From the IMG/VR virus record IMGVR_UViG_3300022935_001212, positions 1 through 23,677 of that record: DNA of 23,677 nucleotides; one strand, given 5' to 3'. Origin of the DNA: a virus. Positions within the stretch are counted from its first letter, which is position 1. Each line of letters starts with the position of its first letter. This document shows, piece by piece, positions 5,667 to 20,160 of this stretch. A program made the position numbers and the translations under genes. The notes below the pieces were generated by a model, which searched no databases, was not told the origin of the DNA, and saw only the letters and a program-made list of their open reading frames with translations.

Positions 5667-5667
5667 A

Positions 5668-6444
5668 TTATACTTTCGTTTTAATTTCTTTTACTTTCCA
5701 CATACGACCGTTGCCGTTGAATTCGCCAATTATGTTAATACTTCTTCTTCGTAGTCTGGGTTGTATTCTAGGTGTTACACTATGCACACTACCTTTAACA
5801 TTTAAAAACATACAAAAATTGTTTGCTTGATAAGGTACTTCACGCTGAGGTTGATGTATATCATCTGCAACTTGTCTGCCAAGTGTTTTGTTTACTTCTG
5901 TAATTTCCTTGTGTACACTATGAACAGTGAAGTTACCACCTAATGAATCATCTTCAGGTAACCTCATATATAACAGCCCTGCATATATTTCAACAGGATT
6001 GTCTATGTGAGGTGTCCTAGTAGTGCCCGTTTGATCAACGGGTTCGTGTACAACAAACTGACAGTCTGCTACATAACTGCCCGAGTTATCTACATCACGC
6101 GGAGTAACACTTCCTTGTAATAAGTCGTGCAAGAATTGGTCACCGTATGCTTTTGCAATGTGAGGACCAAATAATTCTATACAAGAATTAAAATATTCTT
6201 TACTTGTATGATATGCAAAAAAGTCTTGCCAAATTGCAGGTGGTTGTTGCTGTCGGCATTCTTTCATCTTATAACGATATGTTACACCGTTGTCATGTGG
6301 ACTTGTACTACAAACAAGTTCCATAGGAAATGTTTCACATAATTCTTTATATCTTTTTTCAGGAAGTGCGCCTTCTACACAAACATAAGGGTAAGGGTCA
6401 GTTTCTACTTGTTTTACGTTTTGTAATACGCTTAGTTCATGCAT
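5668..6444 (-). CDS. 2-oxoglutarate/Fe(II)-dependent oxygenase
   Basis: This 258-aa protein carries the iron triad of the double-stranded beta-helix oxygenases. The HxD is in TRTPHIDNP (H146, D148) and the distal His in VKGSVHSVTP (H221), followed about ten residues later by basic residues (PRLRRRSINII) that would hold 2-oxoglutarate. The spacing and the NFCMFLNV strand before the distal His fit the prolyl-4-hydroxylase-like phage and cyanobacterial group. It would hydroxylate or otherwise oxidise a sugar, lipid or protein side chain. The gene overlaps the preceding GT-B gene by 8 bases. Family confidence is high; the substrate is not known. Confidence 0.83.
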   Translation of the reverse strand: MHELSVLQNVKQVETDPYPYVCVEGALPEKRYKELCETFPMELVCSTSPHDNGVTYRYKMKECRQQQPPAIWQDFFAYHTSKEYFNSCIELFGPHIAKAYGDQFLHDLLQGSVTPRDVDNSGSYVADCQFVVHEPVDQTGTTRTPHIDNPVEIYAGLLYMRLPEDDSLGGNFTVHSVHKEITEVNKTLGRQVADDIHQPQREVPYQANNFCMFLNVKGSVHSVTPRIQPRLRRRSINIIGEFNGNGRMWKVKEIKTKV

Positions 6445-7285
6445 CTGTTTTTCTTTCTTTTTCTAAATATCTCCAAGCACTTCCACTTAACAGCTCGTGT
6501 GTTTCGAATTGATGGTTACATAAATTAAACAACCATGGCATTCTGTCAAATTCTTTAAGTTTCTCAATGTCCATTATATTATTACTAATAGGATATGCCG
6601 CACATTGTTCGCTACATATAATAGGTATCCCTTGTATAGCGGCTTGTATTGCTACACTACTGTGATAAGCAATCACACAATGTGCTCTTGATAATTCTTG
6701 TTCTAAAGGAAGTTGCGTCGGGTCAACCGGAGTACGTCCAATCTCTTTGCCTTTTTCATCTAAGATAACTTCACCAGGCTTACCCCTTACAATTATCTGT
6801 CTATTTGTTAAAGGTCTAATAGTTTCTAAAACTTTATTAGTCCATTCATGACTTCCAAACACATAACTTACTGCATCTGTAGGCGGCAAAATTAGAATTG
6901 TTTGTCCATCTCTGCGCCAAGGCTTAAGCTCAAATGTTCTATCAAATATTTTGTTAAACTTTGTAGAATCTGTATCTGTAATTTTGTTACAGTTGAACGC
7001 ATCTGCTGTTACACGCATCCACTCGCTTGATTTATTGTAGCCAGCCTTAAAATACGCATGATCCATGTAGTAAAATTTATGTTTACCTGCAATTAGGTAT
7101 TTTAGTAAATCACCACCGCCACGTATGATGCCTGCTGTAATTACTCTCGAAGTATCGCTAGGAATACGTTGATTCCTTATCCACCAATCTATGGGCCAAA
7201 TTCTGCCTTGAGCACCTTTGCTCATATTATGGACAATACGTTCCTGTGTATTTGATTTATTCTTAGGTAAGAATGAAACTATCAT
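6437..7285 (-). CDS. GT-B-like capsule-synthesis-type protein, copy 1
   Basis: This 282-aa protein is one of three relatives in the window. The C-terminal half has QIIVRGKPG (about 163-171) followed by AHCVIAYHSSVAIQAAIQGI (201-220), then PIICSEQCAAYPIS. This resembles the nucleotide-sugar side of capsule/KpsS-type GT-B enzymes, where a Ser-rich loop and a Gly-Ile/Val-Pro turn bind the donor. A shared tail, MPWLFNLCNHQFETHELLSG, follows. The N-terminus begins with INTERNAL basic residues and no signal peptide. It overlaps the next copy by 23 bases and the oxygenase by 8. It is probably a glycan-assembly transferase. The N-terminal half is too diverged to assign an acceptor. Confidence 0.62.
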   Translation of the reverse strand: MIVSFLPKNKSNTQERIVHNMSKGAQGRIWPIDWWIRNQRIPSDTSRVITAGIIRGGGDLLKYLIAGKHKFYYMDHAYFKAGYNKSSEWMRVTADAFNCNKITDTDSTKFNKIFDRTFELKPWRRDGQTILILPPTDAVSYVFGSHEWTNKVLETIRPLTNRQIIVRGKPGEVILDEKGKEIGRTPVDPTQLPLEQELSRAHCVIAYHSSVAIQAAIQGIPIICSEQCAAYPISNNIMDIEKLKEFDRMPWLFNLCNHQFETHELLSGSAWRYLEKERKTDA

Positions 7286-8069
7286 TGATGTTATGTATTC
7301 CTTGACGTATTTCTTTTTCAGTAAATTGATAATAACTTAATGTATTTAACCATTTTGTACGATCGGGTCTAATAGGAGTTTCTATTTTACTAAGGTCCCA
7401 CAGAGCTATAGGCGAGGCTGGTCCTTGCTCGTGAGTGAATACAGGTATGCCTAAACATGCGGCTTCGACTGCCGACATGCTAACTGATGTTACAACTGCA
7501 TGTGCATTACTAGCATCTTCTGCAAAAGGTACTCTAGCCGCGGCTGGCCCACTAGTGCCACGTGCTCTAGGCTTGTGTCTTATTTTAATAGGTCTATCCG
7601 TGTAACGTTTTAGTGTTGCTACTGTTTGTTCAGTCCATCCAGGTTGTCCTATGAATCGTTCCATAGTAGGACTACTAGGGCACACCAAAATATGATCACC
7701 ACGAGTTTGCCAATCATGTACTTCTACTCCTAATTGTTTAAATCTATCATTGGGATAATCATTTACCCAAGTAACATGTGTTGCATTAGGTACAATACGC
7801 CAGTAAAAATCCATATTTGGATTGACTGCTTCTTTTAGTCCATTCCAACGACCCCAATAAGGCATGTCAGTAAAGTACCACTTGAGCCCTAGTCTAATAT
7901 GTTCTTTAACTAAGTGATAATTTTTGCCTACAAATCCCCAAAAGAAACTGGGTCCAGTTTCGTCCCAAGAATAATCTAGTATTTTTCTAAACCCATAACA
8001 CTCATGTAAAGGGTTCATAACACGATAGGCTTTGCTGTCTTCTTTATGTCCCGGACAATATAAGTTCAC
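7263..8069 (-). CDS. GT-B-like capsule-synthesis-type protein, copy 2
   Basis: This 268-aa relative of the 6437-7285 protein has IKIRHKPRA (about 161-169), then NAHAVVTSVSMSAVEAACLG (188-207) and IPVFTHEQGPASPI, then the shared tail R.KWLNTLSYYQFTEKEIRQG. It starts at GTG in a GTGA overlap with the carbamoyltransferase stop. Its Ser-rich loop (TSVSMSAVEAA) aligns with YHSSVAIQAA of copy 1 and SPTGGSAIEAI of copy 3. The N-terminal part is aromatic-rich and without an obvious motif. It is likely a cytoplasmic transferase acting with the carbamoyltransferase on the same glycan. Confidence 0.62.
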   Translation of the reverse strand: MNLYCPGHKEDSKAYRVMNPLHECYGFRKILDYSWDETGPSFFWGFVGKNYHLVKEHIRLGLKWYFTDMPYWGRWNGLKEAVNPNMDFYWRIVPNATHVTWVNDYPNDRFKQLGVEVHDWQTRGDHILVCPSSPTMERFIGQPGWTEQTVATLKRYTDRPIKIRHKPRARGTSGPAAARVPFAEDASNAHAVVTSVSMSAVEAACLGIPVFTHEQGPASPIALWDLSKIETPIRPDRTKWLNTLSYYQFTEKEIRQGIHNINDSFILT

Positions 8070-9541
8070 GAGAAAACCTTTACTCCATATTTGTTTTCAA
8101 ATCTATCTGCGTCAGCACGAGTATCTACCATGGGCTCTCCCCTAATGTTTAAACTTGTGTTCAATAACATAGGACAACCTGTTTCTGCGTACCATGTCTC
8201 TAACAATTTTCTAAAGCCTGGACTATCGTTCTTGCTAACTGTTTGTACACGGCTAGTTCCGTCTACGTGTACAATAGCAGGAAAGTCTTCGGGCTTTTTA
8301 CATGTAGCAACTACTTGCATGTAGGGACTATCTTCCCAAGCCATAGGCATATCAAAGTAATCGTGTACATGTTCAGCAAGTATGGCAGGAGCGAATGGTC
8401 TGAATAGTTGTCGCTTTTTAATCTTGTTAACAGCATCCTTTATTTCTATACCGCGGGGGTCTGCTAATAGACTGCGATGTCCTAATGCTCTAGGACCAAA
8501 CTCTGCTCTGCCGCTTGCTACACCTGCAATCTTATGTTCTTTAAGATAATTTACAAGTTCTTTTACAGGGTACTCACCTGGTATGTCAGTACCCAAATAA
8601 GGGTGTTGCCAATTTAACTTAGTGCCTTGTAGTATAGCGGCGGCTCCTAGACTACTACCAGCATCACCTGGATTGGGCATAATCCAAATGTCTTCAAAGT
8701 ATTTGCCAATGTTCCTGTTTGCTACACAATTTAGTGCTACTCCGCCCATAAACACAACACTAGATTCGCCTGTTAGGTCACGAGCCTTACGGAATACAAC
8801 ATCTAACAGTTCTTCCGTTAGTACTTGTACACCTGCGGCAATATCAGTGTCTTTAGAGTCTTTTAAGTAGTCTTTTTCAATGCCCAAGTGCATATTTTTG
8901 CTAAATTTAAGTCTCCGAGGATCACTTATTAGGTCACTCTTGATAGTACTACTAAGTTTGCCATCACCAAATGCACTCATGCCCATTAGGATATATTCTT
9001 CATCTAGTGGCTTTAGACCTACTCGTTGTGTAAACGCAGAGTACATTAGTCCAATACTATGGGGATACTTGTTTGACCAAAGTTTTTCGTATTCTACTTC
9101 TCCATCAAAGTCTTCTACAGCATGCCATATACTCATAGTATCCCACTCGCCTATAGCATCTACCACAACAACTGCGGCACTTTCGAATGGACTAGTTGCA
9201 AAGCCAGCGGCGGCATGTGATTCGTGATGATCGGCATAGTAAACCGGAATATCTGACAGTCCTGTAAAGTAACGTAAGTTTGTTTTTACTGTGGGCCATT
9301 GTAATGCATCGTCCCATTGTCCTGCAAATGCTTGTCTAAATTTTTTATTCCAGGGATTTTCGTAATAGATTATTTTGTCAGGCTTGCCATACTGAAATGC
9401 TTCTTCAAATATCTGTTTGTTGATCCAGTTGTCGTGCTTGTGCTTACTGAAACGTTCAGTATGTCCTGCAAATAGTATTTCTTTTTCGTTGATTAGCGTT
9501 ACGCCTGCATCGTGGAAACCGTAACTTACACCTAGTATCAT
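8066..9541 (-). CDS. NodU/CmcH-family carbamoyltransferase
   Basis: This 491-aa protein transfers a carbamoyl group from carbamoyl phosphate, through carbamoyl-AMP, to a hydroxyl of a sugar or small molecule. The N-terminal Kae1-like domain shows LGVSYGFHDAGVTL (3-16), the metal/catalytic ADHHESHAAAGF (103-114), VVVDAIGEWDT (125-135), and the ATP-site blocks GGVALNCVANR (266-276) and DAGSSLGAA (293-301). The C-terminal domain has EFGPRALGHRS (348-358), RPFAP (381-385), GTSRVQTV (429-436) and LNTSLNIRGEPMV (460-472). It is a little shorter than many family members (often 550-600 aa) but has all the recognisable blocks. Its ATG is only 14 bases from the divergent ATG at 9556, so its promoter must lie inside that gene. 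Confidence 0.93.
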   Translation of the reverse strand: MILGVSYGFHDAGVTLINEKEILFAGHTERFSKHKHDNWINKQIFEEAFQYGKPDKIIYYENPWNKKFRQAFAGQWDDALQWPTVKTNLRYFTGLSDIPVYYADHHESHAAAGFATSPFESAAVVVVDAIGEWDTMSIWHAVEDFDGEVEYEKLWSNKYPHSIGLMYSAFTQRVGLKPLDEEYILMGMSAFGDGKLSSTIKSDLISDPRRLKFSKNMHLGIEKDYLKDSKDTDIAAGVQVLTEELLDVVFRKARDLTGESSVVFMGGVALNCVANRNIGKYFEDIWIMPNPGDAGSSLGAAAILQGTKLNWQHPYLGTDIPGEYPVKELVNYLKEHKIAGVASGRAEFGPRALGHRSLLADPRGIEIKDAVNKIKKRQLFRPFAPAILAEHVHDYFDMPMAWEDSPYMQVVATCKKPEDFPAIVHVDGTSRVQTVSKNDSPGFRKLLETWYAETGCPMLLNTSLNIRGEPMVDTRADADRFENKYGVKVFS

Positions 9542-9555
9542 ATTAAATATGTTTT

Positions 9556-10425
9556 ATGAAAATTAGCTTTTGGCACAACAATGTTGCACTTGCTGGTCAA
9601 GATATTTATAAGGCATTTGAGAACACTGTAGCAAAAACAGACCAGATAGTACACGAAGATATGTCAGCAGATGTTGCTGTAATATGGAGTGTGTTATGGC
9701 GTGGGCGTATGCAAGGTAACCAAGCAGTATACGATCATTTTCGTAGCCAAGGCAAACCTGTTGTAATTATAGAAGTGGGTGTGTTAAAGCGCAACGAGTC
9801 ATGGCGCATTAGTGTTAACCACATAGACAACACAGGTTACTATGGTCATTTAGATCATCCTATAATAGAAGGCAGACATGAACGTTTTGACTTTGTGCCT
9901 CGTAAGTTTTTAGGTACAGGATCTAAGATTGTTATTTGCTGTCAGAACGAAGCAAGTCAGTTATGGCGTCATATGCCAGACACCAGCACATGGTTAGATC
10001 AAGTCGTACAACGTATAAAAATATTTCACCCCACTAAAGAGATCATTGTTAGACCACATCCAAGATATCCTGTCGCACAAAGTGTTCACAATAGATACCA
10101 AGTCGAACAACCAAATAGACAGGGTGATAAAGATGATACAGATTTTTTAGATACTTTAGATGATGTTTACTACGTAGTAAGTCCCACCGGAGGATCGGCA
10201 ATAGAAGCCATTATTGCAGGAGTACCTGCTATTGTTTCTAAAGAAAGTCTAGCAATGCCTGTTGCTAGAACAGACTACGCAACTCCTCTAGTACCTAATA
10301 AACAGGATCGCAAACAGTGGATTAAAAAGTTACGTAATACAGAATGGTTCTTAGATGAGATTCAAGAAGGCACACCTTGGCGCAGACTTAGGCCGTTTGT
10401 GCTAAATCAAATAAATGCCCGCTGA
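9556..10425 (+). CDS. GT-B-like capsule-synthesis-type protein, copy 3 (inverted)
   Basis: This 289-aa plus-strand relative of the two minus-strand GT-B-like proteins has EIIVRPHPRYP (about 162-172), DDVYYVVSPTGGSAIEAIIA (202-221), GVPAIVSKESLAMPV, then the shared tail RKQWIKKLRNTEWFLDEIQEG and WRRL. The N-terminal half (SFWHNNVALAGQDIYKAF, VAVIWSVLWRG, PVVIIEVGVLKRN) looks like the acceptor-side Rossmann half of capsule and surface-polysaccharide transferases. A late-like ATTAAATA lies 6 bases before the ATG. The 3' end overlaps the convergent methyltransferase gene by 38 bases. Being the only copy on this strand, it probably moved by inversion or separate insertion. Confidence 0.65.
   Translation: MKISFWHNNVALAGQDIYKAFENTVAKTDQIVHEDMSADVAVIWSVLWRGRMQGNQAVYDHFRSQGKPVVIIEVGVLKRNESWRISVNHIDNTGYYGHLDHPIIEGRHERFDFVPRKFLGTGSKIVICCQNEASQLWRHMPDTSTWLDQVVQRIKIFHPTKEIIVRPHPRYPVAQSVHNRYQVEQPNRQGDKDDTDFLDTLDDVYYVVSPTGGSAIEAIIAGVPAIVSKESLAMPVARTDYATPLVPNKQDRKQWIKKLRNTEWFLDEIQEGTPWRRLRPFVLNQINAR
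9603..9610 (-). promoter_or_regulatory. Late-promoter box TATAAATA for the carbamoyltransferase operon
   Basis: A perfect TATAAATA on the minus strand lies within the first codons of the plus-strand gene 9556-10425. The predicted start is near 9597, giving a leader of about 56 bases before the ATG at 9541. The leader could fold a small hairpin (GTGCAACA pairing with TGTTGTGC, two G-U pairs). Coding constraint on the other strand also shapes this sequence, so motif function is inferred. Confidence 0.55.
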
Positions 10426-11143
10426 TCCAGCGTAGTAATAAATGAGGTTGATTAGTTACGTGGTTGAATCTATCTATACTTTCCTCAAAACTTTTAGGTA
10501 ACAATTTCTTATCACGAAGATCATGCCATGTAGTTGTCATAGGATCCATCGGCTTAACTTTACTTTTGTAGACTACTGCATGTAACCAAGGGTCATCTTT
10601 GGCTTTGTAGTACAAACCATCTTTACAATCAAAGCCAGCACACGCCATCATGAACACCAAGTTTATAATGTTAAAATTATAAAAGTGTCCTGGTAAATGA
10701 TGGATGTGTGTCCTATTATATTCAATGTTGTGCAGTTGTGGTAATATTACACACAACATACCACCAGCGTTCATTTGTTCATTCCAAACTCTTAACGTGT
10801 CATAGGGATTTTGTACATATCCTAAACTATCATGACTCCATATCAGATCAACCTTTGTAGGAAGGAAGGGAGCCTTTGTAAAATCGTTTTCAACAACTTT
10901 TAAATTTTTTGGTAGGTTATATTTTATACTAGGTTTCAAATCAACAGCGAAACATTTGTAGTTATGTGGGATAGGTGGGTCGTCTCTACTTGCGCACTCT
11001 GCCCACCACTTTATGTCTAAGCCTGCACCACAACCAACATCTGCTACACTACGAATACTGTCCATTAAGTCATCGTGTTTATACAGTGCTTCTAGTGTAA
11101 ACAAACTTTGCTGGTGACTTTCTTCTGGTGTTAGTTGTCTCAT
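10388..11143 (-). CDS. Class I SAM-dependent methyltransferase
   Basis: This 251-aa protein has a clear SAM motif I, VADVGCGAGLD (about 33-43), motif II CFAVDLKPS, motif IV VDLIWSHDSLGYVQNPYDTL and the following strand MNAGGMLCVILPQL. It fits the Methyltransf_11/25 type. A longer frame reaches back to 11236, but that part lies inside uvsY. The ATG at 11141-11143 forms an ATGA overlap with the uvsY stop, so I take it as the start. The 3' end overlaps the convergent GT-B gene by 38 bases. It is transcribed with uvsY, so a role in the recombination-gene transcript or in the glycan cluster are both possible. Confidence 0.78.
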   Translation of the reverse strand: MRQLTPEESHQQSLFTLEALYKHDDLMDSIRSVADVGCGAGLDIKWWAECASRDDPPIPHNYKCFAVDLKPSIKYNLPKNLKVVENDFTKAPFLPTKVDLIWSHDSLGYVQNPYDTLRVWNEQMNAGGMLCVILPQLHNIEYNRTHIHHLPGHFYNFNIINLVFMMACAGFDCKDGLYYKAKDDPWLHAVVYKSKVKPMDPMTTTWHDLRDKKLLPKSFEESIDRFNHVTNQPHLLLRWISGHLFDLAQTA

Positions 11144-11592
11144 ACGCTTACATCTTCCATACCTGCTGTTCGCAGTCTTGTAATGTGACCTAGTTGCCAT
11201 TGTTTGGCTTCCAGGCCTTTCATAATACCTAACCATTTATTACGAAGTAGCGCAACTTCATTAATTAGCGTTTCAAAGTCTACTACTTCGTCCTCACCAT
11301 CAACATACTTCTCAGCATCTCTACTGGTCAACGCACGTTGATAGCCTTCTAGATATTTCTTAAACCATTTACGTCTAATGCGTCGTAGTTCAATGTTAAG
11401 ATAGTTTAAGACTGCTTCTATCTCTTGTAACTGATTAAATCTATGTTCAGTTACACCAGGCAAGTTAGTAAGGGACTTCTCTACGTTGCCCCATATCTTA
11501 ACTTCCTGTTTGGCTTCGTCTAACTCATTGTTGTAGTGTGCAATGAAGTCAGGCAAAAAAGCCAAGTCTTGAACTACTTTGTTATACCACAT
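11140..11592 (-). CDS. uvsY: UvsY recombination mediator
   Basis: This 150-aa, helix-rich and charged protein is close in length to T4 UvsY (137 aa). The C-terminal half matches what I know of T4-like phage UvsY: RIRRKWFKKYLEGYQRAL, then DAEKYVDGEDE and LINEVALLRNKWLGIMKGLE, ending QLGHITRLRTAG. UvsY loads UvsX on gp32-covered single-stranded DNA during recombination-dependent replication. The gene is in a TAATG overlap with the acidic-protein gene upstream and an ATGA overlap with the methyltransferase downstream. uvsX and gp32 are in the same window and orientation, separated by accessory genes. Confidence 0.88.
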   Translation of the reverse strand: MWYNKVVQDLAFLPDFIAHYNNELDEAKQEVKIWGNVEKSLTNLPGVTEHRFNQLQEIEAVLNYLNIELRRIRRKWFKKYLEGYQRALTSRDAEKYVDGEDEVVDFETLINEVALLRNKWLGIMKGLEAKQWQLGHITRLRTAGMEDVSV

Positions 11593-11831
11593 TAGTCGTC
11601 AAATTCTAGTTCGTCCATGTCGTCATCGCCGTCCTCTTCATCGAGGTAATCTTCAGCGGCTCTTTTTAGATAAGAATCTGTAGCACAAAACTTTTCGAAC
11701 TCTGGGTCTGCAATTCCCATGTCTACTAGATTGCCCACTAATTGATCTGCGGCTGTTTGTCTATCTTTACTGGGTACATACTCTTTCATAATCAAGTATG
11801 TTTCTGTTAATACGTCTAATTCAACTGACAT
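11592..11831 (-). CDS. Small acidic phage protein of unknown function
   Basis: This 79-aa protein has a predicted helical body (LDVLTETYLIMKEYVPSKDR) and a very acidic tail (EDYLDEEDGDDDMDELEFDD). I recall similar small acidic proteins next to uvsY in marine T4-like phages, but no function is known to me. The tail resembles those used to compete with DNA for a binding surface, so a partner such as UvsY or gp32 is possible (inference). It directly abuts the radical-SAM gene (TAAATG) and overlaps uvsY by one base. Confidence 0.7.
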   Translation of the reverse strand: MSVELDVLTETYLIMKEYVPSKDRQTAADQLVGNLVDMGIADPEFEKFCATDSYLKRAAEDYLDEEDGDDDMDELEFDD

Positions 11832-13208
11832 TTAATTTTCCTCACTTAAAAGCGAATTTAGTTCTGGATAATAATCGCCAAAGAGCGTTGCTCTTTTTTG
11901 ATCTTGGGGTTCCAGATATTCCCGTACACTACTTATACCTTCTTTAGAATCCATTATATCCAAAATAGGTTCTATTTTGTCCTTAAAGTTTTGATTACTT
12001 AGTGACAATAATTTTGTTCTAACATTTTCCTTTACTATACTAGGCAAATTTGTAACTGTCAACTCCGCTGGATTAGACAATGCACTAAATGTAACTGGCA
12101 TTCCTAGTTGCTCGCCTAATTCAAACACTTCGTTTGCGTACATTACATTTATATTAGTTACTGTGGCATAGATATTACATGTGTACTCGGTTTCTGCATA
12201 TTTGCGTAAATTGGCAGAAACTGTTCTCCAAGTAGATCCAAAACGTTCGTACATAAAACGTTTGCCCACAGCATCAATACTAAAACTTAGCTCAACTGCT
12301 TTAAACTGGTCCCAATAGTCAAACAAAAAATCTGCAAATACTGTGCCATTAGTATTATAATGAAGTGTAACTTGTCTACTAAGTCCTGCATCTATAAAGT
12401 ATTGTAACAGTTTTCTATGTGTTTTGTCTAGTAGTGGTTCACCACCTGCAAATGTAATGTATCTTACGTCTTTACTGATGCTGATAATATCAGACCAAAA
12501 TGTACTAGACTCATTTGCTAACCAGTTGAACTCTACCGTTTCTGCATCTGCATAACGACCCCACGTACTACTACATCTAGGACTGCATATTCTACATGCT
12601 AGGTTACACTTGTTGCCTAACTTGATATCTAAGTTTAATATCTTGTTTGATGTTAGGTCATTGTAGTCTATGTCAAACTTGTGTTCTCTAAACACATATT
12701 CATCGTTTAACCGTTTACTAACACCACCCTGTTCCTCAACTTGCCAACACTTGTTACACGCACCAGGCTTATTTCCTAGTATGAGTTGTTGCTTAAGTTC
12801 TTGTTGTTTATCACTTGCAAAGTATTCAACAATACTTGTAGTGTCTTCGCCCAGTTGCCTATCCCATAAACAACAACGATGTAAACTACTGTCAACGTCT
12901 ATCTCTAGTCCTGCCCACGGCGTCATACAAATTGTATCTGGTATGTTGTAGTTTGTGGGATTGTCTATTGATAAATTGCCTCTGTTTATGTTCTCAACAA
13001 AGAATGTATCAATGTCTAAATGTACAAATAACTTGCTAAGGTAACGCTCTAAGTGTTCTTTAGCATCAGAGTCTAAGACATCATCAATAAAAAGAATGCG
13101 TTCGTCGTCAGCAAACGCACCTTTATACACTGCCTTTAAATCTTTATAAATTTGATTAATAGGCTGTGATAGTAGACTGCTATAATGTATTTTAGTTAGG
13201 TAGTTCAT
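11832..13208 (-). CDS. Radical-SAM protein with N-terminal twitch/SPASM-like domain (paralogue D, longest)
   Basis: This 458-aa protein has the radical-SAM motif GNKCNLACRIC (C201, C205, C208), which holds the 4Fe-4S cluster, then FAGGEP (253-258) and an LSFSIDAVG block. Before it lies a Cys-rich module: CMTPW (C94), RCC (C112-113) and CNKC (C151, C154). This is the spacing of a SPASM/twitch auxiliary-cluster domain, but it sits on the N-terminal side of the barrel. Residues 1-80 form an additional domain not found in the other three paralogues (ILFIDDVLDSDAKEHLERYL). It would use SAM to form a 5'-deoxyadenosyl radical; the substrate is unknown. It overlaps the upstream radical-SAM gene by 17 bases. 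Confidence 0.85.
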   Translation of the reverse strand: MNYLTKIHYSSLLSQPINQIYKDLKAVYKGAFADDERILFIDDVLDSDAKEHLERYLSKLFVHLDIDTFFVENINRGNLSIDNPTNYNIPDTICMTPWAGLEIDVDSSLHRCCLWDRQLGEDTTSIVEYFASDKQQELKQQLILGNKPGACNKCWQVEEQGGVSKRLNDEYVFREHKFDIDYNDLTSNKILNLDIKLGNKCNLACRICSPRCSSTWGRYADAETVEFNWLANESSTFWSDIISISKDVRYITFAGGEPLLDKTHRKLLQYFIDAGLSRQVTLHYNTNGTVFADFLFDYWDQFKAVELSFSIDAVGKRFMYERFGSTWRTVSANLRKYAETEYTCNIYATVTNINVMYANEVFELGEQLGMPVTFSALSNPAELTVTNLPSIVKENVRTKLLSLSNQNFKDKIEPILDIMDSKEGISSVREYLEPQDQKRATLFGDYYPELNSLLSEEN

Positions 13209-14319
13209 TTAACCAGTTAACAAATGACGTTGGAAATATTGTTAAGTCTAGATTTCGACGTTTTACAAATTCTTTTAAAAATACAACTAGGTTTCTGTGT
13301 TGTTCTGTAGTACAGGGTGTCTGTATAGATTGTTTTATAAAGTTATCTTTGTTTTTGAATTGCACTGACTGTAAATGCTCTTTACTTTTGTCGTCTAATA
13401 CATTTAATGCAAGATAGTCTGGTTCATTACAAAATACCATGTCTATATCATAGTCAGCGTATTTGTCCTCAAATTCTTTAAAATTAAAAATGGTTAAGTT
13501 TGATAACACACTACTAAATGACACTTTTCCTGCTTGTTGCAAAAGTTCTAAGTTCCGTGTAAACCTTTCATAACTGTTATTATATCTAGCGAACTCGTAA
13601 CTGGCGCCCAATCCTTCAGCACTAACCATAAACTCCACATTGTCGCTTACATCCTCAAGTATACGTTCTAACCTATCAGTATTAACACCTAAGCCAGTAT
13701 ATAACTTAACAGGATTCGTAAAGTTTTTTAGCAACTTAGTTAAACTGTTGTTTAAAAAAGGTTCGCCTCCGCTTATAGATACAAACTCGTAATTCTTATA
13801 CTTAACTATTTCATCTATCAGTAAATTATAAGACTCTGTTTGATCTATTTTCTTTTGCCCTAACTTTAATAAAATTTTATCGTTAACATTTATATCAAAC
13901 CTAGCCTCATTGAGGTATGCACCGTTGTCGGCTATGTCTCTAAGCCAAGCAGTACTGTATTGTTTTGTGCAGTACACGCAAGTTAAATTACAATCACTGC
14001 CAAGATTAATATGTAATACTTCTGGTTCCGTTGTTATATTAGTATGTGTTACTTTGTCTGATCCCATAACAAGTCGTCTACTAGACTTTCCTTGACGTTC
14101 GGGAGCCCAACACGTACCTTCACAACTAGAAACCTGTATCCCATCCAACATATCCTTACGCTCTTGTGTTAGTATAGGTATATTAAACAAGTTACCTGGA
14201 TTGTCTTTTAACCAAGTAGTGTCTATTTTATGCGGATAAGCGGCGCAACACGATTGTAATTGCCGCCGCTCAGGTTCTATAGTTAGCCACCAAAATTTTT
14301 GAGAGCAATAACTACTCAC
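13192..14319 (-). CDS. Radical-SAM protein with N-terminal twitch/SPASM-like domain (paralogue C)
   Basis: This 375-aa protein has the N-terminal Cys module C5, C24-C25, C66 and C70 (last pair CEGTC, three residues between rather than two). The radical-SAM motif is GSDCNLTCVYC (C110, C114, C117), with SISGGEP (181-187) as the SAM-binding block and EFMVSAEGLG as a later strand. It starts at GTG (14317-14319), 8 bases within the 3' end of uvsX. It shares the overall order with its three paralogues but is far diverged, so this is not a recent tandem duplication. Substrate unknown. Confidence 0.84.
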   Translation of the reverse strand: MSSYCSQKFWWLTIEPERRQLQSCCAAYPHKIDTTWLKDNPGNLFNIPILTQERKDMLDGIQVSSCEGTCWAPERQGKSSRRLVMGSDKVTHTNITTEPEVLHINLGSDCNLTCVYCTKQYSTAWLRDIADNGAYLNEARFDINVNDKILLKLGQKKIDQTESYNLLIDEIVKYKNYEFVSISGGEPFLNNSLTKLLKNFTNPVKLYTGLGVNTDRLERILEDVSDNVEFMVSAEGLGASYEFARYNNSYERFTRNLELLQQAGKVSFSSVLSNLTIFNFKEFEDKYADYDIDMVFCNEPDYLALNVLDDKSKEHLQSVQFKNKDNFIKQSIQTPCTTEQHRNLVVFLKEFVKRRNLDLTIFPTSFVNWLNELPN

Positions 14320-15400
14320 TATCTACAACTTCCGGTTCCTCATTGGTAACTTCTACTGTGGGTTCTTCAGTAGATTTTTCAATTTGACCCCACGAATTAA
14401 TGATAGCATCCAAGCAACCTTCTTCGTTGCGTTCCCACTCTTTACGGTACATTTTAGTTTCTTCACCTTTAGCATTTACATGCTTGAGCCTATTGCCATC
14501 TTTTTGTAACAAGTTCTTTTTCTCAAACAAGTCTACTAATCCACTGTATGGATTCATGCCTGTTTCATATGGGATCTTAACTTGTACACCTTCAAATGGT
14601 TTTGCATAACGAGTCTTCATTACTTTACAGCCTGCTCTAATACCTTTTACTTCGCTAATCTTGTTACCGTCCTCATCTTCTTTCAGTTTTAGTTTCTTCA
14701 TAGCAACTACAATAGATGATGCATAGATAAAGCCTTGACCGCCTGAGATCTTGTCATCTGGGTCAAACATATCTTGCGATGCGTATGTGTGGTTAGTACA
14801 TACCATACCTACGTTGTGACTACCAAACATGTTAACACAGTTACGCACTAGTGCGGTTAGTGCTTTAGGTTTACGACCCATGTCACCTTTCAAGTCACCT
14901 TTGTCAAATTGGTCAACGTCTGTAGGTGTCAGCAACATACCTAAACTGTCAATTACAAATAATACTTTAGGTCTGTCATCTTCTGGTGTCGCACGATAGT
15001 CTGCCATAAATTGACTAATAGTTTTTGCTACGTCATCAATCATAGCCAAACCTAAACGCAACAATTTGTCCTCGCTGGTGTCAACACCTAGTGCATGTAA
15101 CCATGCTTCATCTAGAGCGTTCTCACTATCTACTAGTACAACATAAATTCCTTGTTCTTGTGCGGCTTTAATAATGTTACCTGAACAAATGTAACTCTTA
15201 CCTGCACCTGACTCACCTGCAAATACAGTTACCTTGCCAAGTGGCACACCTTTGTTAAAGTCTCCACTGATAAGATAGTTTAAGGCATAGTTGCCTGTTG
15301 AGATCCAGTCTGTAGGATCGTTAAAGCCAAAACTAATACCATCAATGGCTTTAGTTAGGCCTTTTCTAAATTTTGATACGTCGAAGGGTTTTTGTGCCAT
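14312..15400 (-). CDS. uvsX: UvsX RecA-like recombinase
   Basis: This 362-aa recombinase forms filaments on single-stranded DNA and performs strand exchange in T4-type recombination-dependent replication. It has Walker A GESGAGKS (62-69), the acidic pair VLVDSENALD (88-97), Walker B VLFVIDSLG (146-154), the loop region CTNHTYAS and DKISGGQGFIY (217-226, DNA-binding loop 2 area), and an acidic C-terminal tail (EEPTVEVTNEEPEVVD). The ATG has GAGG 8-9 bases upstream. Radical-SAM genes lie directly on both sides, one ending 2 bases before its start and the other overlapping its stop by 8 bases. Confidence 0.95.
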   Translation of the reverse strand: MAQKPFDVSKFRKGLTKAIDGISFGFNDPTDWISTGNYALNYLISGDFNKGVPLGKVTVFAGESGAGKSYICSGNIIKAAQEQGIYVVLVDSENALDEAWLHALGVDTSEDKLLRLGLAMIDDVAKTISQFMADYRATPEDDRPKVLFVIDSLGMLLTPTDVDQFDKGDLKGDMGRKPKALTALVRNCVNMFGSHNVGMVCTNHTYASQDMFDPDDKISGGQGFIYASSIVVAMKKLKLKEDEDGNKISEVKGIRAGCKVMKTRYAKPFEGVQVKIPYETGMNPYSGLVDLFEKKNLLQKDGNRLKHVNAKGEETKMYRKEWERNEEGCLDAIINSWGQIEKSTEEPTVEVTNEEPEVVDSE

Positions 15401-15401
15401 G

Positions 15402-16556
15402 TTATTGCCTCATAAGTTTATAAATGTCAGGGAATATTTGCTCACTGTCTGTACTTCTGCGAGCATCTATCCACTGTAAGTATTCAATCGTGCTGTTTGG
15501 ATTTTTTTCAAACGGCTCTTGTATATATCTCAGTAAATTTCTATAACTGTTTTCTAATAGATGTCCTAGGTTTTCGTTTATTCGTTTACGTAGTATAACA
15601 CTTATTTTTTCTAGTGTCAATTTACTATGATGCCGAATGTTAAGTTCTACCGGCCCTGTTATTGGTCCTATTACAAATGCATTTGGATGAAAGTTCCAGT
15701 CATTTTTAAATTTGTCAATAAAATCAAACATGCTATACGCATTAAGAGCAAAGTATAACATATTAAATGTTATCTTATGTCCTAGGTCTTTGATCCAACG
15801 TAAGTTACTACAAAAAGTTGCCCAGTCTCCACCATAACGAATATACTCGTACTCTGCACCCATTGTTTCTGCGCTCACTATCCAGTGTACATTCTTAAAT
15901 TGGCATGCTAAGTCAAACACTCGAGTATTGGTATGACTAAGGTTAGTGTTGATGCGCAGACTCACGTCGGGATTGAACTCTAAGAGTAACTCTAAGAGTT
16001 CTTCGTTCTCTGTCATTAGCATGGGCTCGCCGCCTGCTAGGTAAACGTTTTTTAATGTTTTTATGTTTTCAAAAACATAATTACGCAAGTCTTTATAAGT
16101 GTCTTTGCTTGGCTTAGGTTGTGCAATGCCTAGATCCTGTTCCCATTTGCTACTAAACTCTGGACCGCAGTATATACAGGTAAAGTTACAAGTGTTTTGC
16201 CAACGTATATCAATTTGATGTAGTTCATGTGTGCTATGGTCATATATACCTTTATCTACATTTTTCAGTTCTTTGATATAGTACTTTCTGTCACTAATAA
16301 CATTTATACCGGTAGTTTGTCTCTCCAGTTCATAACAGCCTTGACAACTCGCATGTTCTTTACCAGACTGTTGTGTTTGTTGTACTTCTCGATTTTTATC
16401 TCCAGAGACAATGTCACGTATAGACATCGTTTTAAGATCGCCTATGTCCTCGTATGCTCTTATACAGTTTTTGACTTGTCCATTATGGTTGACCATCATG
16501 CCTGTCCAAGGAACAGGGCAACGTACAGGACTTGTAACGTATTCTTTTGCGTCCAT
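15402..16556 (-). CDS. Radical-SAM protein with N-terminal twitch/SPASM-like domain (paralogue B)
   Basis: This 384-aa protein has the N-terminal module CPVPW (C13), KNC (C31) and CQGC (C71, C74), which is the cleanest twitch/SPASM-type pattern of the four. The radical-SAM motif WQNTCNFTCIYC (C123, C127, C130) and VYLAGGEP (171-178) follow, then LRINTNLS and VHWIVSAETMG strands of the barrel. Its ATG forms a one-base overlap (TAATG) with the dehydrogenase stop, and it ends just before the uvsX start. The CPVPW and CxxC block resembles peptide-modifying SPASM enzymes, but no precursor peptide is evident nearby. A sugar or other small-molecule substrate is equally possible. Confidence 0.86.
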   Translation of the reverse strand: MDAKEYVTSPVRCPVPWTGMMVNHNGQVKNCIRAYEDIGDLKTMSIRDIVSGDKNREVQQTQQSGKEHASCQGCYELERQTTGINVISDRKYYIKELKNVDKGIYDHSTHELHQIDIRWQNTCNFTCIYCGPEFSSKWEQDLGIAQPKPSKDTYKDLRNYVFENIKTLKNVYLAGGEPMLMTENEELLELLLEFNPDVSLRINTNLSHTNTRVFDLACQFKNVHWIVSAETMGAEYEYIRYGGDWATFCSNLRWIKDLGHKITFNMLYFALNAYSMFDFIDKFKNDWNFHPNAFVIGPITGPVELNIRHHSKLTLEKISVILRKRINENLGHLLENSYRNLLRYIQEPFEKNPNSTIEYLQWIDARRSTDSEQIFPDIYKLMRQ

Positions 16557-17077
16557 TATGCTAGACTAATGTCGTATACTTCCATGCCAACTTGGTCATG
16601 GTCCAATATGTTAGTAAGTTTTTCTACCCATGCTGTAACATTAGCACCGCCTTCACCTTGTGTGTCAACTTTGCCTGGACGCACAATAACTAACTGAGGC
16701 CAAGTCAAGTTGTTACGCAATACTTCTACTGCGGACTCTAGTGTACGTTTTTGATGATGATACTTCATCATGTCATAACCTTCTAAACAACTAACAGGCA
16801 TACCTGCCATCATACTACTGATGTTAATAATCTTTTTACCTGGTTTATCTCGCCAGTATTCATATACATCAAACAATAGTTCTGTTTGTGCGTAACCTTG
16901 TTGTGCGTTGTTAAAGAACCAATCTGCTTGTGACACACGTTCTGCTATACGTTCGTGATGTTGTATGTTCCATCCATTACGTTTACTGTAATCTAATACT
17001 GTGTGTCCTTTTTTAACATAATGCTCTACTATGGCTTTACCAATGCCATTGCTACCACCTGTAATTGCTATTTTCAT
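16556..17077 (-). CDS. Compact short-chain dehydrogenase/reductase
   Basis: This 173-aa protein has the SDR NAD(P)-binding motif TGGSNGIG (6-13), NNAQQG (56-61, variant of NNAG), the catalytic Ser in INISSMM (S87/S88) and YDMMK (Y101, K105), then VRPGKVDTQ (132-140). It would reduce or oxidise a carbonyl/hydroxyl with NAD(P). The usual SDR length is about 240-260 aa. Here the stretch between the Gly loop and NNA is shortened (about 45 instead of 75 residues) and the C-terminal substrate lid is missing. It sits between radical-SAM paralogues A and B with ATGA and TAATG overlaps, so it is probably in the same pathway. Confidence 0.82.
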   Translation of the reverse strand: MKIAITGGSNGIGKAIVEHYVKKGHTVLDYSKRNGWNIQHHERIAERVSQADWFFNNAQQGYAQTELLFDVYEYWRDKPGKKIINISSMMAGMPVSCLEGYDMMKYHHQKRTLESAVEVLRNNLTWPQLVIVRPGKVDTQGEGGANVTAWVEKLTNILDHDQVGMEVYDISLA

Positions 17078-18024
17078 AAGTAGTCCTTGTAGTTAATTTT
17101 TCGAATAGTGTCTTGATACAGCATCCACTCTGTAAGTTTATGACTGTTATCTTGTTCAGTGCCTACAACATTCTCAAACAAGTCTTTGTGTGGCTCTGTT
17201 AAAAAGTTTGTGTGCCTTACACTTAGTACATCTGGTGATTCTAAAAATGCCCATGACCAATTAACTTGTTTACTTTCTACAAATTGTTTAATGTTATTGA
17301 AGTCACCAATGTTTAATGCACTTATAGTAGACCATAAGTCTAAATGAAAGTTATCATTTTTAAAACGTTTGTAATAGTTAAAAGTCTTTAGCCATGTTTT
17401 CCAAGTAACGGGCCAACGCAAGTAATCGTGTACTTTGTCTATGCCGTCCAAGCTCATTGTTATTGTAACATCTATGTCACGTTTTAGTAATGGCTTAGGA
17501 TCTATTTTAAGACTACCGTTAGTGTTTATTCTCACATAACGTATATTAGGTGGCAAATACTCTAACAGTTTTTTATAGTTAGGACTCGCCGTGGGCTCAC
17601 CGCCATTTATGTCTAACTTTACAATACGCTCTTGCGGAAAGTCATAAAACTTGTCTGTGTTGTCTACTGCTATCGTTTTGTTGGCAATAGCACCAAACTT
17701 TGTACTTAAGTGTGGGTTACAATGTTGACAGGCACTATTACAAACATTGTCTAGTACCCCGCCTATAATAAGATAATCTCTGCGTATGTTATGTAGTTCT
17801 TGATGTTGCTTTTCAGCAAACTGTCTAATACTTTCTTTGCCTTCGTTTTCACTAACACGACAACGTATACATTCATCGGGCCAGTTACCTAAGTTTTGAT
17901 TCCACTCACTGGCATTCATTTCATTAAATGATTCGAAGCGAGGTGCATTAACCATATGCCCGCAACGACTAACTGTGCCGTCTGGGTTCAATCTTGCAAA
18001 ATGTCTAAATCTAACGCAATTCAT
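17074..18024 (-). CDS. Radical-SAM protein with N-terminal twitch/SPASM-like domain (paralogue A, shortest)
   Basis: This 316-aa protein starts almost at its first module Cys (C3), followed by C21 and CIRC (C52, C55). The radical-SAM motif is LDNVCNSACQHC (C95, C99, C102), with KLDINGGEP (136-144), VRINTNGS and ITMSLDG. The Cys spacing is CxxxCxxC as in the classical family. It overlaps the 2OG-oxygenase-like gene by 14 bases upstream and the dehydrogenase by 4 (ATGA) downstream, so the four proteins are likely translated from one message. Substrate unknown. Confidence 0.85.
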   Translation of the reverse strand: MNCVRFRHFARLNPDGTVSRCGHMVNAPRFESFNEMNASEWNQNLGNWPDECIRCRVSENEGKESIRQFAEKQHQELHNIRRDYLIIGGVLDNVCNSACQHCNPHLSTKFGAIANKTIAVDNTDKFYDFPQERIVKLDINGGEPTASPNYKKLLEYLPPNIRYVRINTNGSLKIDPKPLLKRDIDVTITMSLDGIDKVHDYLRWPVTWKTWLKTFNYYKRFKNDNFHLDLWSTISALNIGDFNNIKQFVESKQVNWSWAFLESPDVLSVRHTNFLTEPHKDLFENVVGTEQDNSHKLTEWMLYQDTIRKINYKDYL

Positions 18025-18529
18025 TTACTGGTTCATTAAAAAATGTTATACTTAATACAATACGTGGCCCATACTCAATCTTTACACCGTGTGGTATTTG
18101 ACTGTTAAACACGATTGGTTTTGTAAAGAACTTGTGTGTAATTATCTCTGAGTTTGCTACCCAGCCTTTTAAGTCATATACTTCTCTATCAAACTTGTCT
18201 TTTATTTTTGGTCTGTAACTAATATCCTCATCATACCAATAGTTGATGTTACCAACACAATTTTGTATAGGTATGTTAAGTTTAGCAACTACTGGTTTTG
18301 CATCTACGTGTAAGTCTAAGTGTCTAGTAAGGTATGTACAAGCAATGTCCCTAGGGTGTAGTTTAAGATCCTTAACTAGCCAATTCATAAGAGTAGGACA
18401 ACTACGTAGACAAGTAGCCTCATCTATGTCGTTCCATCCTTCTTCTAATGTGTAGTGTGCAAGATGCTCCAATATTTCTCGCTGTATATGGATTATACCG
18501 TGACACTCTAGCTCTTTAAATGCTTTCAT
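18011..18529 (-). CDS. Putative 2OG-Fe(II) oxygenase-like beta-helix protein
   Basis: This 172-aa protein has TRHLDLHVDAKPVVAKLNIP, giving an HxD (H74, D76), then FNSQIPHGV (H147) and PRIVLSITF (R156, nine residues later). The H-x-D...H...R order and strand pattern fit a small 2-oxoglutarate/Fe(II) oxygenase or a related cupin-fold enzyme. The frame extends upstream to a TTG at 18550. I prefer the ATG at 18527-18529 because its 14-base overlap with the sulfotransferase-like gene matches local spacing. Neither start has a good ribosome site. It lies upstream of radical-SAM paralogue A. The family call is moderate. Confidence 0.55.
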   Translation of the reverse strand: MKAFKELECHGIIHIQREILEHLAHYTLEEGWNDIDEATCLRSCPTLMNWLVKDLKLHPRDIACTYLTRHLDLHVDAKPVVAKLNIPIQNCVGNINYWYDEDISYRPKIKDKFDREVYDLKGWVANSEIITHKFFTKPIVFNSQIPHGVKIEYGPRIVLSITFFNEPVNELR

Positions 18530-19100
18530 GTATGTTTTTACTATGCTCAAAAACTTCTTTATAGTATTCCTTATAGTTTATACGAAGTACACGCATTAGT
18601 TCGTCAAAATGTACTTGTTCATCTATGTAGTTGTCCCATATCATCTTATCACAAGTCATGTAGAACTGTACTTTGTCAGACACAGGCACATCCATTGTAT
18701 TATAGGGTCGTTCGTGAAATACTGTTACTTCTCTAATTTTATCTATGCTTTTAAACACAAAACTTGTTTGCTCGTTCATATAACGATGCAAGTTAATTAA
18801 AGTGTAAAACTGTGGTGCATAATGTTTATTTAAAAACAAATACTTCACAGCCGTATGCATACTAATGCCAGTCTGGTGTACAAACGTACTTACACCACTT
18901 TTGAACCTTGCAATAGGTTCTCGCCAGTAAACTGTAATTGCTTGTGCTTGTTGTATTTCTTTAAGAGTTGCTAACTTGTATCCTTCTTTATCTATGCTAC
19001 TTGAGGCATTTTTAAGTATTTTAGCCACAAGTTTGCCTGACGGTAGTTTATATACCTCAGGTGTGTCGGGAAATAGTTCGTAATCGAGTTGTGTAAACAT
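18516..19100 (-). CDS. Sulfotransferase-like protein
   Basis: This 194-aa protein has KILKNASSS (28-35), which resembles the 5'-phosphosulfate loop (PKxAGTS type), and TVYWREPIARFKSGV (56-70), which resembles the 3'-phosphate segment (RxPxxRxxS, with the Arg and Ser in place). It is short and has diverged from the sulfotransferase at 3582-4301. The likely role is PAPS-dependent sulfation; loss of activity cannot be excluded. It is the first gene after the hairpin that follows gp32. A TACAAATA (one mismatch from the late box) ends one base before the ATG. Confidence 0.62.
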   Translation of the reverse strand: MFTQLDYELFPDTPEVYKLPSGKLVAKILKNASSSIDKEGYKLATLKEIQQAQAITVYWREPIARFKSGVSTFVHQTGISMHTAVKYLFLNKHYAPQFYTLINLHRYMNEQTSFVFKSIDKIREVTVFHERPYNTMDVPVSDKVQFYMTCDKMIWDNYIDEQVHFDELMRVLRINYKEYYKEVFEHSKNIHESI

Positions 19101-19167: not shown

Positions 19168-20160
19168 TTACTTTTGTCTATTTCTAATCATAGCCAAAAT
19201 GTCTTCTGCTCTTTGGCTTGATGGTTTGCTAGCCTCTACAGGAGCAGTTGCTTCTGCTGGCTCAGCATCTTCTACTACAGGCTCAGGTTGTGCTTCTACT
19301 GTAGTTTGTGGTGTAGGAGCAGGCTGTGCCGCAGGAGCACTTTCAGTTGCAGGTTGTGCGTTAGCAATAACTACACCTGCTGGTCTGAAGTAACTGCCCC
19401 ACTTGTCTGCATCATATGGTTGCCCATCTACTGATGCTTCAAACATCTCTTTCATAACTTTAAGAGCTGTCTCGTCTGGACGCTTGGGCAAGAAGTCTGC
19501 TAGATTGAATAAACCATATTGTTCTATAGCCGCTGTTTCTGTTGATGTAAGTGCAGACTCTCGCCTTGCCCAATTACTTGTAGAGTAGTCGCTGTAACCG
19601 CCTTTGCTAGTCTTAACTACTCTGAAGTCTAATCCTTGATTGTAATCAGTTGGTAACTCAACCATGTCTGGGTCAAGCAATGCTGACTTAATCAAGTTAA
19701 AGATTTGTGGACTAATTACAAATCTACGAATTGGATTCTCAGGAGTTGTTTCCTCCTGCATTGGGTTTTCTTTTACAAAGCCTTGGAACAAGTAACTACG
19801 CTTCTTCCAGTACTTACGACCCATATCTTCTAAACTTGGATCTTTAAACCAAGTTCGAACCTCAGCAAGAATAGGACATGACTCGCCCCACATCTCAACA
19901 CATGGAACTTGTACTGTTACTGGTTTACTATCTGCTTGTCCTTTAATACCCTGAAAAGGTAATCGGATCATAGCACGTTCTACCCAGAAAAAATCGTTGT
20001 TTGTGTCTCCATCAGGAAGGAACCTGATAGTTGCGGTTTCGCCTTCTTTAATGTTCCAGTGTGCAAAGATAGCATTGTCGCCACCCCCACTAGAATTACC
20101 GCCTTGTCTTGTTTCTTGTTGTTGCAGTCTTGCTCTGATATCGGCCAATGATGTTGCCAT
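19168..20160 (-). CDS. 32: gp32-like single-stranded DNA-binding protein
   Basis: This 330-aa protein is similar in length to T4 gp32 (301 aa). The N-terminus has a basic cooperative-binding stretch (SLADIRARLQQQETR, about 4-18), followed by the OB-fold core, with IRFLPDGD, FFWVERAMIRLP, and VPCVEMWGESCPILAEVRTWF (residues 85-105), YLFQGFVKENP, FVISPQIFNLI and DFRVVKTSKGGYSDYSTSNWARR. The C-terminal tail from about 268 is rich in Ala, Pro and Glu, and ends RAEDILAMIRNRQK. Only C87 and C95 are seen in the zinc region, fewer than T4's three Cys plus His. It coats single-stranded DNA and binds replication partners by its tail. AAGGAG lies 8 bases before the ATG. Confidence 0.92.
   Translation of the reverse strand: MATSLADIRARLQQQETRQGGNSSGGGDNAIFAHWNIKEGETATIRFLPDGDTNNDFFWVERAMIRLPFQGIKGQADSKPVTVQVPCVEMWGESCPILAEVRTWFKDPSLEDMGRKYWKKRSYLFQGFVKENPMQEETTPENPIRRFVISPQIFNLIKSALLDPDMVELPTDYNQGLDFRVVKTSKGGYSDYSTSNWARRESALTSTETAAIEQYGLFNLADFLPKRPDETALKVMKEMFEASVDGQPYDADKWGSYFRPAGVVIANAQPATESAPAAQPAPTPQTTVEAQPEPVVEDAEPAEATAPVEASKPSSQRAEDILAMIRNRQK

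Follow-up and report, generated by a model that had tools for sequence, protein, structure and literature searches.

A radical-SAM, dehydrogenase and sulfotransferase-like gene cassette carried nearly whole between gp32 and uvsX in T4-superfamily phages

Introduction

T4-like phages with up to 12 radical S-adenosylmethionine (radical-SAM) genes have been described, among them the 183-kb environmental genome TARA_ERS488813_N000010, whose 12 such genes are treated under an iron–sulfur theme (PMC5332604), and the marine pelagimyophages MAGV3 and MAGV16, which have many (PMC7029224). Such genes are also present in the stretch considered here, IMG/VR virus record IMGVR_UViG_3300022935_001212 (23,677 nucleotides, hereafter the window), a 23.7-kb record whose T4-type core genes are encoded on its minus strand: four radical-SAM genes, which we call rSAM1 to rSAM4, are grouped around the recombinase gene uvsX, and two of them belong to a cassette between uvsX and a gp32-like gene, together with a short-chain dehydrogenase/reductase (SDR) gene and a sulfotransferase-like gene. 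The passages of the two papers that treat these phages mention no gp32–uvsX cassette, sulfotransferase, SDR or N-terminal cluster module.

The closest described protein family is NF033640 (N_Twi_rSAM), which is the best NCBIfam family for all four proteins and shares with them a module placed before the radical-SAM barrel; it differs in that rSAM2 and rSAM4 score below its cut-off, that rSAM2 has CxxxC in place of CxxC, and that the model names no reaction. The solved enzyme taken for comparison is BtrN (PDB 4m7s and 4m7t), the 2-deoxy-scyllo-inosamine dehydrogenase of butirosin synthesis. The likeness we propose is radical dehydrogenation of a sugar-like ring; the auxiliary module is C-terminal in BtrN and N-terminal here, and our claim is limited to "works like".

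At the level of biology the nearest comparison is phage serotype conversion, for which, along with phage glycan modification, glycosyltransferases have been proposed (PMC7029224). In the account given there the proposed outcome is likewise a changed host surface glycan; the difference here is radical-SAM and sulfation chemistry, located with recombination genes. Our literature search found no description of a co-inherited radical-SAM/SDR/sulfotransferase-like cassette; new here are that nearly all-or-none cassette with its sulfotransferase-like gene, the expansion of the family in phages, and its link to carbohydrate genes.

Results

A packed cassette is gained and lost nearly whole

Four core genes, joined in some phages by an oxygenase-like gene, form one packed cassette that is gained and lost nearly whole in T4-superfamily phages. 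In the window, the cassette and its boundaries are as follows.

19168..20160, minus strand: gp32-like single-strand binding protein, the cassette's left boundary, named by inspection and position
18516..19100, minus strand: sulfotransferase-like protein, 194 aa, core cassette gene 1, with conserved motifs and weak fold and Pfam matches
18011..18550, minus strand: 2-oxoglutarate (2OG)-Fe(II)-oxygenase-like protein, optional cassette gene, with HxD...H...R kept in relatives
17074..18024, minus strand: rSAM4, 316 aa, radical-SAM protein with N-terminal four-Cys module, core cassette gene 2
16556..17077, minus strand: short SDR, 173 aa, core cassette gene 3 (adh_short)
15402..16556, minus strand: rSAM3, 384 aa, radical-SAM protein with N-terminal twitch-like module, core cassette gene 4
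14312..15400, minus strand: uvsX recombinase, the phage core gene separating two insertion sites (RecA Pfam E 8e-14)

Each radical-SAM protein served as a query against viral contigs, and uvsX was added as a query to give a less biased sample; we kept the best 80 of at least 600 candidates for uvsX, 80 of 117 for rSAM2 and 80 of 114 for rSAM3. No uvsX was obtained from 25 of 256 viral loci, and 13 of 113 uvsX clusters, having no complete gp32..uvsX interval, were left uncounted. Among the remaining 100 dereplicated clusters, the core set (sulfotransferase-like, rSAM4, SDR and rSAM3 genes) was complete in 39, absent from 58 and partial in 3, counts that lean towards carriers because the radical-SAM queries fetched most loci. 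The uvsX-sampled subset (n = 59), which is less biased although it, too, consists of the loci closest to the uvsX of the window, gave 8 complete, 50 absent and 1 partial. Thus 39 of the 42 clusters with any core gene have all four; the three partial clusters hold the sulfotransferase-like gene and rSAM4 (L244), the SDR gene and rSAM3 (L064), and everything except the SDR gene (L130). An earlier reading of the window made from its sequence only had proposed a multistep pathway of four radical-SAM copies with a dehydrogenase and an oxygenase. The linkage of rSAM3 and rSAM4 with the SDR gene bears out one part of this, while rSAM1 and rSAM2 come and go separately; no more than 17 of the 39 full cassettes have the oxygenase-like gene, and the sulfotransferase-like gene, which that reading had not named, is linked as tightly as the radical-SAM genes.

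Gene order is variable within limits. The gp32-like gene adjoins the cassette on the left in the compared loci, and 18 full cassettes then read sulfotransferase-like–rSAM4–SDR–rSAM3; the oxygenase-like gene follows rSAM4 in 11 more and precedes it in 6, the latter being the window's order. Three read SDR–rSAM3–sulfotransferase-like–rSAM4 and one rSAM3–sulfotransferase-like–rSAM4–SDR, so that linkage was kept despite a change of order in 4 of the 39. Junctions inside the cassette have medians of −4 to −47 nt, overlaps that may be overstated because the starts are those of the longest open reading frame (ORF), and none leaves 120 nt; among the outer junctions, 7 of 35 between rSAM3 and uvsX and 1 of 34 between gp32 and the sulfotransferase-like gene do.

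We mapped cassette presence onto a quick tree built from uvsX alone, with 96 tips (38 with the full cassette and 58 without it), omitting the 3 partial clusters and one full cluster whose uvsX was short. At least 19 presence/absence changes are needed, compared with a mean of 30.1 and a minimum of 24 over 100 label shuffles; recombination, or mistakes in a tree that rests on one gene, could make the 19 too high. Cassette presence therefore partly tracks uvsX kinship, yet has changed often, nearly always as a set. Pairwise distances across 40 clusters gave Spearman correlations of 0.47–0.70 among the cassette genes, 0.19–0.34 between these and gp32, and 0.29–0.57 between these and uvsX. In 47 uvsX-sampled cassette-free intervals, gp32 adjoins uvsX within less than 200 bp in 26, and 265–4213 bp of other DNA fill the other 21, which indicates that gp32–uvsX is a general insertion site.

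One locus carries much of the set elsewhere. On a 10-kb contig binned as Porticoccaceae metagenome-assembled genome (MAG) MED13 (L261), the SDR, sulfotransferase-like, rSAM4 and oxygenase-like genes lie together at a different locus, with three more radical-SAM-like ORFs (one by inspection only) and no clear rSAM3. The contig resembles a phage fragment, having a gp41/DnaB-like helicase by inspection, and was the sole rSAM4 locus found in a pattern-based scan of 84,980 species genomes.

A predicted cluster module precedes the barrel in all four radical-SAM proteins

The four ORFs (11832-13208, 13192-14319, 15402-16556 and 17074-18024, minus strand) were found at exactly the positions first read, on both sides of uvsX, and a search of the window record with the NF033640 model matched rSAM1 to rSAM4 and no other protein. 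The claim that each has a C...C...CxxC-like module ahead of a CxxxCxxC barrel motif also stood, with CxxxC in rSAM2. The N-terminal and barrel cysteines are C94/C112/C151/C154 and C201/205/208 in rSAM1, C5/C24/C66/C70 and C110/114/117 in rSAM2, C13/C31/C71/C74 and C123/127/130 in rSAM3, and C3/C21/C52/C55 and C95/99/102 in rSAM4. All seven presumptive ligands are invariant among relatives with a letter at the site (13/13 for rSAM1, 62/62 for rSAM2, 87/87 for rSAM3 and 68/68 to 71/71 for rSAM4), these rows being all distinct, with many from closely related viruses.

The remark that such an N-terminal-twitch architecture may be known was correct. rSAM1 (290.4 bits) and rSAM3 (232.8) pass the NF033640 cut-off of 170 bits; rSAM2 (150.9) and rSAM4 (118.1) miss it, although it is still the best family by far for both, and from these scores we treat the two as relatives of NF033640, not as formal members. 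All four pass the Radical_SAM (PF04055) cut-off of 29.5 bits (31.2, 39.0, 52.6 and 34.2 for rSAM1 to rSAM4). The proposed profile check of the N-terminal modules gave a divided result, in that rSAM3 passes the Pfam SPASM cut-off, with SPASM at 13-75 followed by Radical_SAM at 119-269, and rSAM1, rSAM2 and rSAM4 do not. In all four proteins, then, a predicted cluster module precedes the radical-SAM barrel, an architecture already known.

The AlphaFold2 (AF2) model of rSAM3 has a predicted local distance difference test (pLDDT) score of 87.7, and its barrel matches BlsE, SuiB, MoaA, anSME and others by fold, a comparison that covers mainly the barrel and hardly reaches the N-terminal module. A profile of 26 rSAM3 relatives aligned the four N-terminal cysteines of rSAM3 with four cysteines near the C-terminus of BtrN, the parts being swapped. 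The whole-sequence E value was 2.6e-4 and that of the module alone (independent E) 0.09, which makes the alignment a lead agreeing with SPASM and NF033640, not proof. A single-sequence search of the PDB with rSAM3 found no match at E 0.01, and tblastn with rSAM3 alone as a single sequence found nothing at E 1e-5 in 50,697 annotated phage records.

Two other identities were considered and rejected. PADLOC viperin models match all four proteins weakly, at about 21–34 bits and at the level of the barrel, and heme b synthase (ahbD) and other equivalogs fall far below their cut-offs. rSAM1 matches ahbD at E 8e-8, at 32 bits against a cut-off of 500. Weak matches of this kind could lie behind questionable "ahbD" assignments in surveys of viruses; one such survey, of Baltic viruses, reports 261 "ahbD" calls and doubts their function (PMC9301287).

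The partner proteins resemble a sulfotransferase, an SDR and an oxygenase

The product of 18516-19100 is probably a sulfotransferase, judging by its motifs and its model. Its family (35 rows) has the motifs FKN-SSS and R-P--R--SG, with R60, P62, R65 and G69 invariant and K30 and S68 kept in at least 90%, which we take to be the binding pattern of 3'-phosphoadenosine 5'-phosphosulfate (PAPS), namely the 5'-phosphosulfate-binding (5'-PSB) loop and the R..S of the 3'-phosphate-binding (3'-PB) site. The Sulfotransfer_2 Pfam model is weakly matched by 9 of the 35 members and does not match the window protein. In a VIA fold search with the AF2 model (pLDDT 91.8), the 21 best rows were all sulfotransferases, heparan sulfate 3-O-sulfotransferases first; the best row (Z 5.3, root-mean-square deviation 4.6, 139 aligned) is below the tool's trusted Z of 8 and may reflect just a common arrangement. 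Foldseek with the same model returned nothing at E ≤ 0.001, and the family profile had no PDB match at E 1.

The predicted dehydrogenase at 16556-17077 proved to be a real SDR: it matches adh_short with 39.2 bits against a cut-off of 26.6 (E 6.6e-10) and has the motifs TGxxxGIG and YxxxK, with Y106 and K110 invariant in 25 rows; its profile matches solved SDRs, than which the window protein is shorter. The predicted oxygenase fared less well. HxD...H...R is kept across 19 rows (H81, H154 and R163 invariant, D83 in at least 90%), and the family has no significant family match, Asp_Arg_Hydrox reaching E 0.0068 in 1 of 19 members; PDB matches of its profile were at chance level. The ORF has a TTG start as listed, and relatives (for example, L017) begin at the equivalent of an internal ATG.

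rSAM1 and rSAM2 are separate additions between uvsX and uvsY

The interval on the other side of uvsX holds the remaining radical-SAM genes.

13192..14319, minus strand: rSAM2, 375 aa, separate uvsX/uvsY insertion
11832..13208, minus strand: rSAM1, 458 aa, with an N-terminal extension of about 90 aa, separate uvsX/uvsY insertion
11592..11831, minus strand: p79, small acidic ORF of 79 aa in the uvsX/uvsY interval, outside the cassette
11140..11592, minus strand: uvsY recombination mediator, context (phrog_231 E 5.7e-15)

Scoring presence at 250 bits in the 33 clusters that have rSAM3 or rSAM4 and both intervals complete, we found neither rSAM1 nor rSAM2 in 16, rSAM2 only in 13, rSAM1 only in 2 and both in 2. 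The expectation that the four genes would co-occur elsewhere was borne out by one close relative (L027), where rSAM1 and rSAM2 follow each other in the reverse of their order at 11832-14319 of the window, and by no other of the 33; the second cluster with all four is the window virus itself (L006, 100% identical). rSAM2 is also carried by 13 of 54 cassette-free clusters, a rate biased by the many clusters that rSAM2 itself fetched, and the uvsX..uvsY interval of some clusters holds further, weaker family members. rSAM1 and rSAM2 are thus separate, exchangeable additions from the cassette's enzyme family. p79, which has no family match, is present in 58 of the 60 clusters that were sampled by uvsX and have the whole uvsX..uvsY interval, and is a common phage gene outside the cassette.

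The family is expanded in large phages

Counting NF033640 matches of at least 110 bits, we found 14 (13 over the cut-off) in the 289-kb record G001, 12 (10) in the 357-kb G002 and 12 (10) in the 220-kb G003, which is close to G002; raw counts were 14, 16 and 14, from which 0, 4 and 2 matches below 35 bits were excluded. Only 2 of the 18 large records searched have no such match, and rSAM4 is present as a single copy in each of 10.

At 95.4-104.7 kb of the sister phage G001 (L262/L263), seven ORFs of the N_Twi radical-SAM family form a tandem array. Its neighbours include a class III aminotransferase (4.6e-39), a GDSL hydrolase and an adenosine 5'-phosphosulfate (APS)-kinase-like protein (Pfam 5.6e-10). 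A 325-aa neighbour of this array looks amidinotransferase-like by inspection and is unsupported by any Pfam or NCBIfam model. In G002 (L268) there is a five-member radical-SAM array with SGNH-like ORFs (by inspection) and a carbamoyltransferase.

Cellular relatives adjoin carbohydrate genes

Three cellular loci of the family have carbohydrate genes nearby. G095 has four family members with genes for an ABC2 permease, Wzt, WbsX, TylF and RmlD, and its ORF at L278:8579-11143 (minus strand, 854 aa) combines ABC_tran and Wzt_C, the parts of the O-antigen exporter ATPase Wzt, with SPASM and Radical_SAM, with 300 bits to NF033640; this Wzt–radical-SAM fusion was seen as one ORF in one assembly. The family member of G672 adjoins a dTDP-glucose-dehydratase/GalE-like gene, with glycosyltransferase- and methyltransferase-like genes recognised by inspection. 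In G130 the family member has sugar-nucleotide- and glycosyltransferase-like genes near it on one flank and phage-like genes on the opposite flank, each recognised by inspection. Few of the cellular genomes searched have the family: 3 of 299 matched at E 1e-45, one being the MAG with the L261 contig, and at E 1e-50 the counts were 1 of 78 (G095 again) and 1 of 385 (G672, G130 lost at that limit).

Proposed function of the cassette

With little better than even confidence, we favour a reading in which the cassette would oxidise or epimerise, and then sulfate, a residue of a host surface glycan, a substrate that we infer. Carbohydrate genes near the cellular members and in the window favour a surface glycan, and the aminotransferase and APS-kinase-like genes near the seven-ORF array of G001 add to that context; of the two substrates first suggested, a sugar of the surface glycan or a nucleotide, these cellular contexts leave the glycan better supported and the nucleotide less so. 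The target would be either a sugar of that glycan or the activated precursor of such a sugar. Through a 5'-deoxyadenosyl radical, a radical-SAM enzyme would abstract a hydrogen atom from a sugar carbon, and the N-terminal [4Fe-4S] cluster would accept an electron, as the C-terminal one of BtrN does, to give a keto sugar. The SDR might then reduce or oxidise the product, setting its stereochemistry; in some phages only, the oxygenase could add a hydroxyl, and the sulfotransferase would cap a hydroxyl with sulfate from PAPS. If the cassette is expressed along with the recombination proteins, the surface change would come about during infection, where it could plausibly exclude competing phages. 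The order of the steps and the identity of the sugar are guesses.

Several observations weigh against this proposal. Support for the substrate comes entirely from gene context, and the cassette itself is located among DNA-metabolism genes. The glycan link is drawn from three cellular loci, two of them partly read by inspection, and from family members other than rSAM3 and rSAM4; the context of G130 is ambiguous because phage-like genes flank its other side. The sulfotransferase-like and oxygenase assignments combine motifs with scores that are weak or moderate. The APS-kinase-like gene is below NCBIfam cut-offs and occurs in 4 of the 18 large records, one of them without rSAM4. Finally, given the correlation of the cassette genes with uvsX, the distances are suggestive of co-transfer apart from the phage backbone but are not clean evidence for it.

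Alternatively, the enzymes could modify nucleotides or DNA, as hypermodification against restriction, which we regard as unlikely. The enzymes are encoded among gp32, uvsX and uvsY, next to recombination genes, and T4 keeps DNA-modification genes near uvsX. A look-up of modification genes in the large records, which covered the thymidylate-synthase family, found such a gene in 3 of 18, all among the 10 with rSAM4, and in G001 and G002 some 11 kb separate it from the radical-SAM array. It is absent, however, from 7 of the 10 rSAM4 records, most of which are fragments. In these synthases Asn marks the dUMP type and Asp a dCMP hydroxymethylase, and the G001 gene, the one of the three that was read, has PFNIAS, with the Asn of the dUMP type. 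We know of no sulfation of DNA bases, and the cellular family members adjoin carbohydrate genes.

We also considered that the proteins are maturases of ribosomally synthesised and post-translationally modified peptides (RiPPs), as many SPASM/twitch enzymes are, and think this quite improbable. SkfB, SuiB and anSME are among the nearest solved radical-SAM structures by fold and profile, but the fold comparison matched the barrel that these enzymes have in common. In the clusters examined, none of the cassette's internal junctions offers the 120 nt for a precursor gene, although outer junctions sometimes do, and short ORFs elsewhere were not searched; p79, the small ORF nearby, occurs mostly in cassette-free clusters. 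We disfavour RiPP maturation because the cassette has no internal room for a precursor and p79 is a common phage gene.

A role in superinfection exclusion or counter-defence, some other function unconnected with sugars, or a set of enzymes with no common substrate would fit the patchy occurrence of the cassette and the weak PADLOC viperin matches of all four proteins. We give this, too, a low probability, if anything slightly lower: sequences of about 40–50% identity have invariant ligand and catalytic residues, the genes remain together through rearrangement, and the viperin scores are consistent with the shared barrel. A single fixed pathway of all four radical-SAM enzymes is highly improbable and was rejected, since rSAM1/rSAM2 and the cassette occur apart, as in the 16 of 33 clusters without rSAM1 and rSAM2 and the 13 with rSAM2 but no cassette, even though the window virus and L027 have all four.

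Returning to the oxidation or epimerisation and sulfation of a surface sugar, a tentative extension is that large T4-superfamily phages use up to 14 permuted-twitch radical-SAM enzymes to edit host surface sugars through radical chemistry in the course of infection, with the cassette as a self-contained oxidise/epimerise-then-sulfate unit; this might amount to a new class of serotype conversion by phages, with enzymes akin to those of O-antigen export loci, as in the Wzt–radical-SAM fusion. The name of NF033640 states no function, and a substrate class that can be tested now comes from its linkage to sulfotransferase-like and SDR genes, its carbohydrate context and the Wzt fusion. If the proposal is true, phages rewrite bacterial surface sugars with oxygen-sensitive radical enzymes, a strategy that we did not find described in the literature searched.

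Other genes of the window

The best annotated-phage matches of the window's uvsX are to Agrobacterium phage Atu_ph07 and other phages of 350–490 kb, at about 66–67% identity. The features beyond the recombination genes are listed below.

22695-23675, minus strand: terminase, named by position and inspection
467..10425: carbohydrate-type context genes, outside the cassette (10 of the proteins there)

Ten of the proteins in the latter region are DUF6492, GT8, Sulfotransfer_2, an FkbM methyltransferase, a methyltransferase, a weak 2OG oxygenase, a carbamoyltransferase and three unassigned proteins. Between the terminase and gp32, an 809-aa protein (20269-22698, minus strand) is highly divergent and has the same place in many relatives. 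The proteins at 6437-7285, 7263-8069 and 9556-10425 have no Pfam match and resemble one another weakly by profiles built in this analysis.

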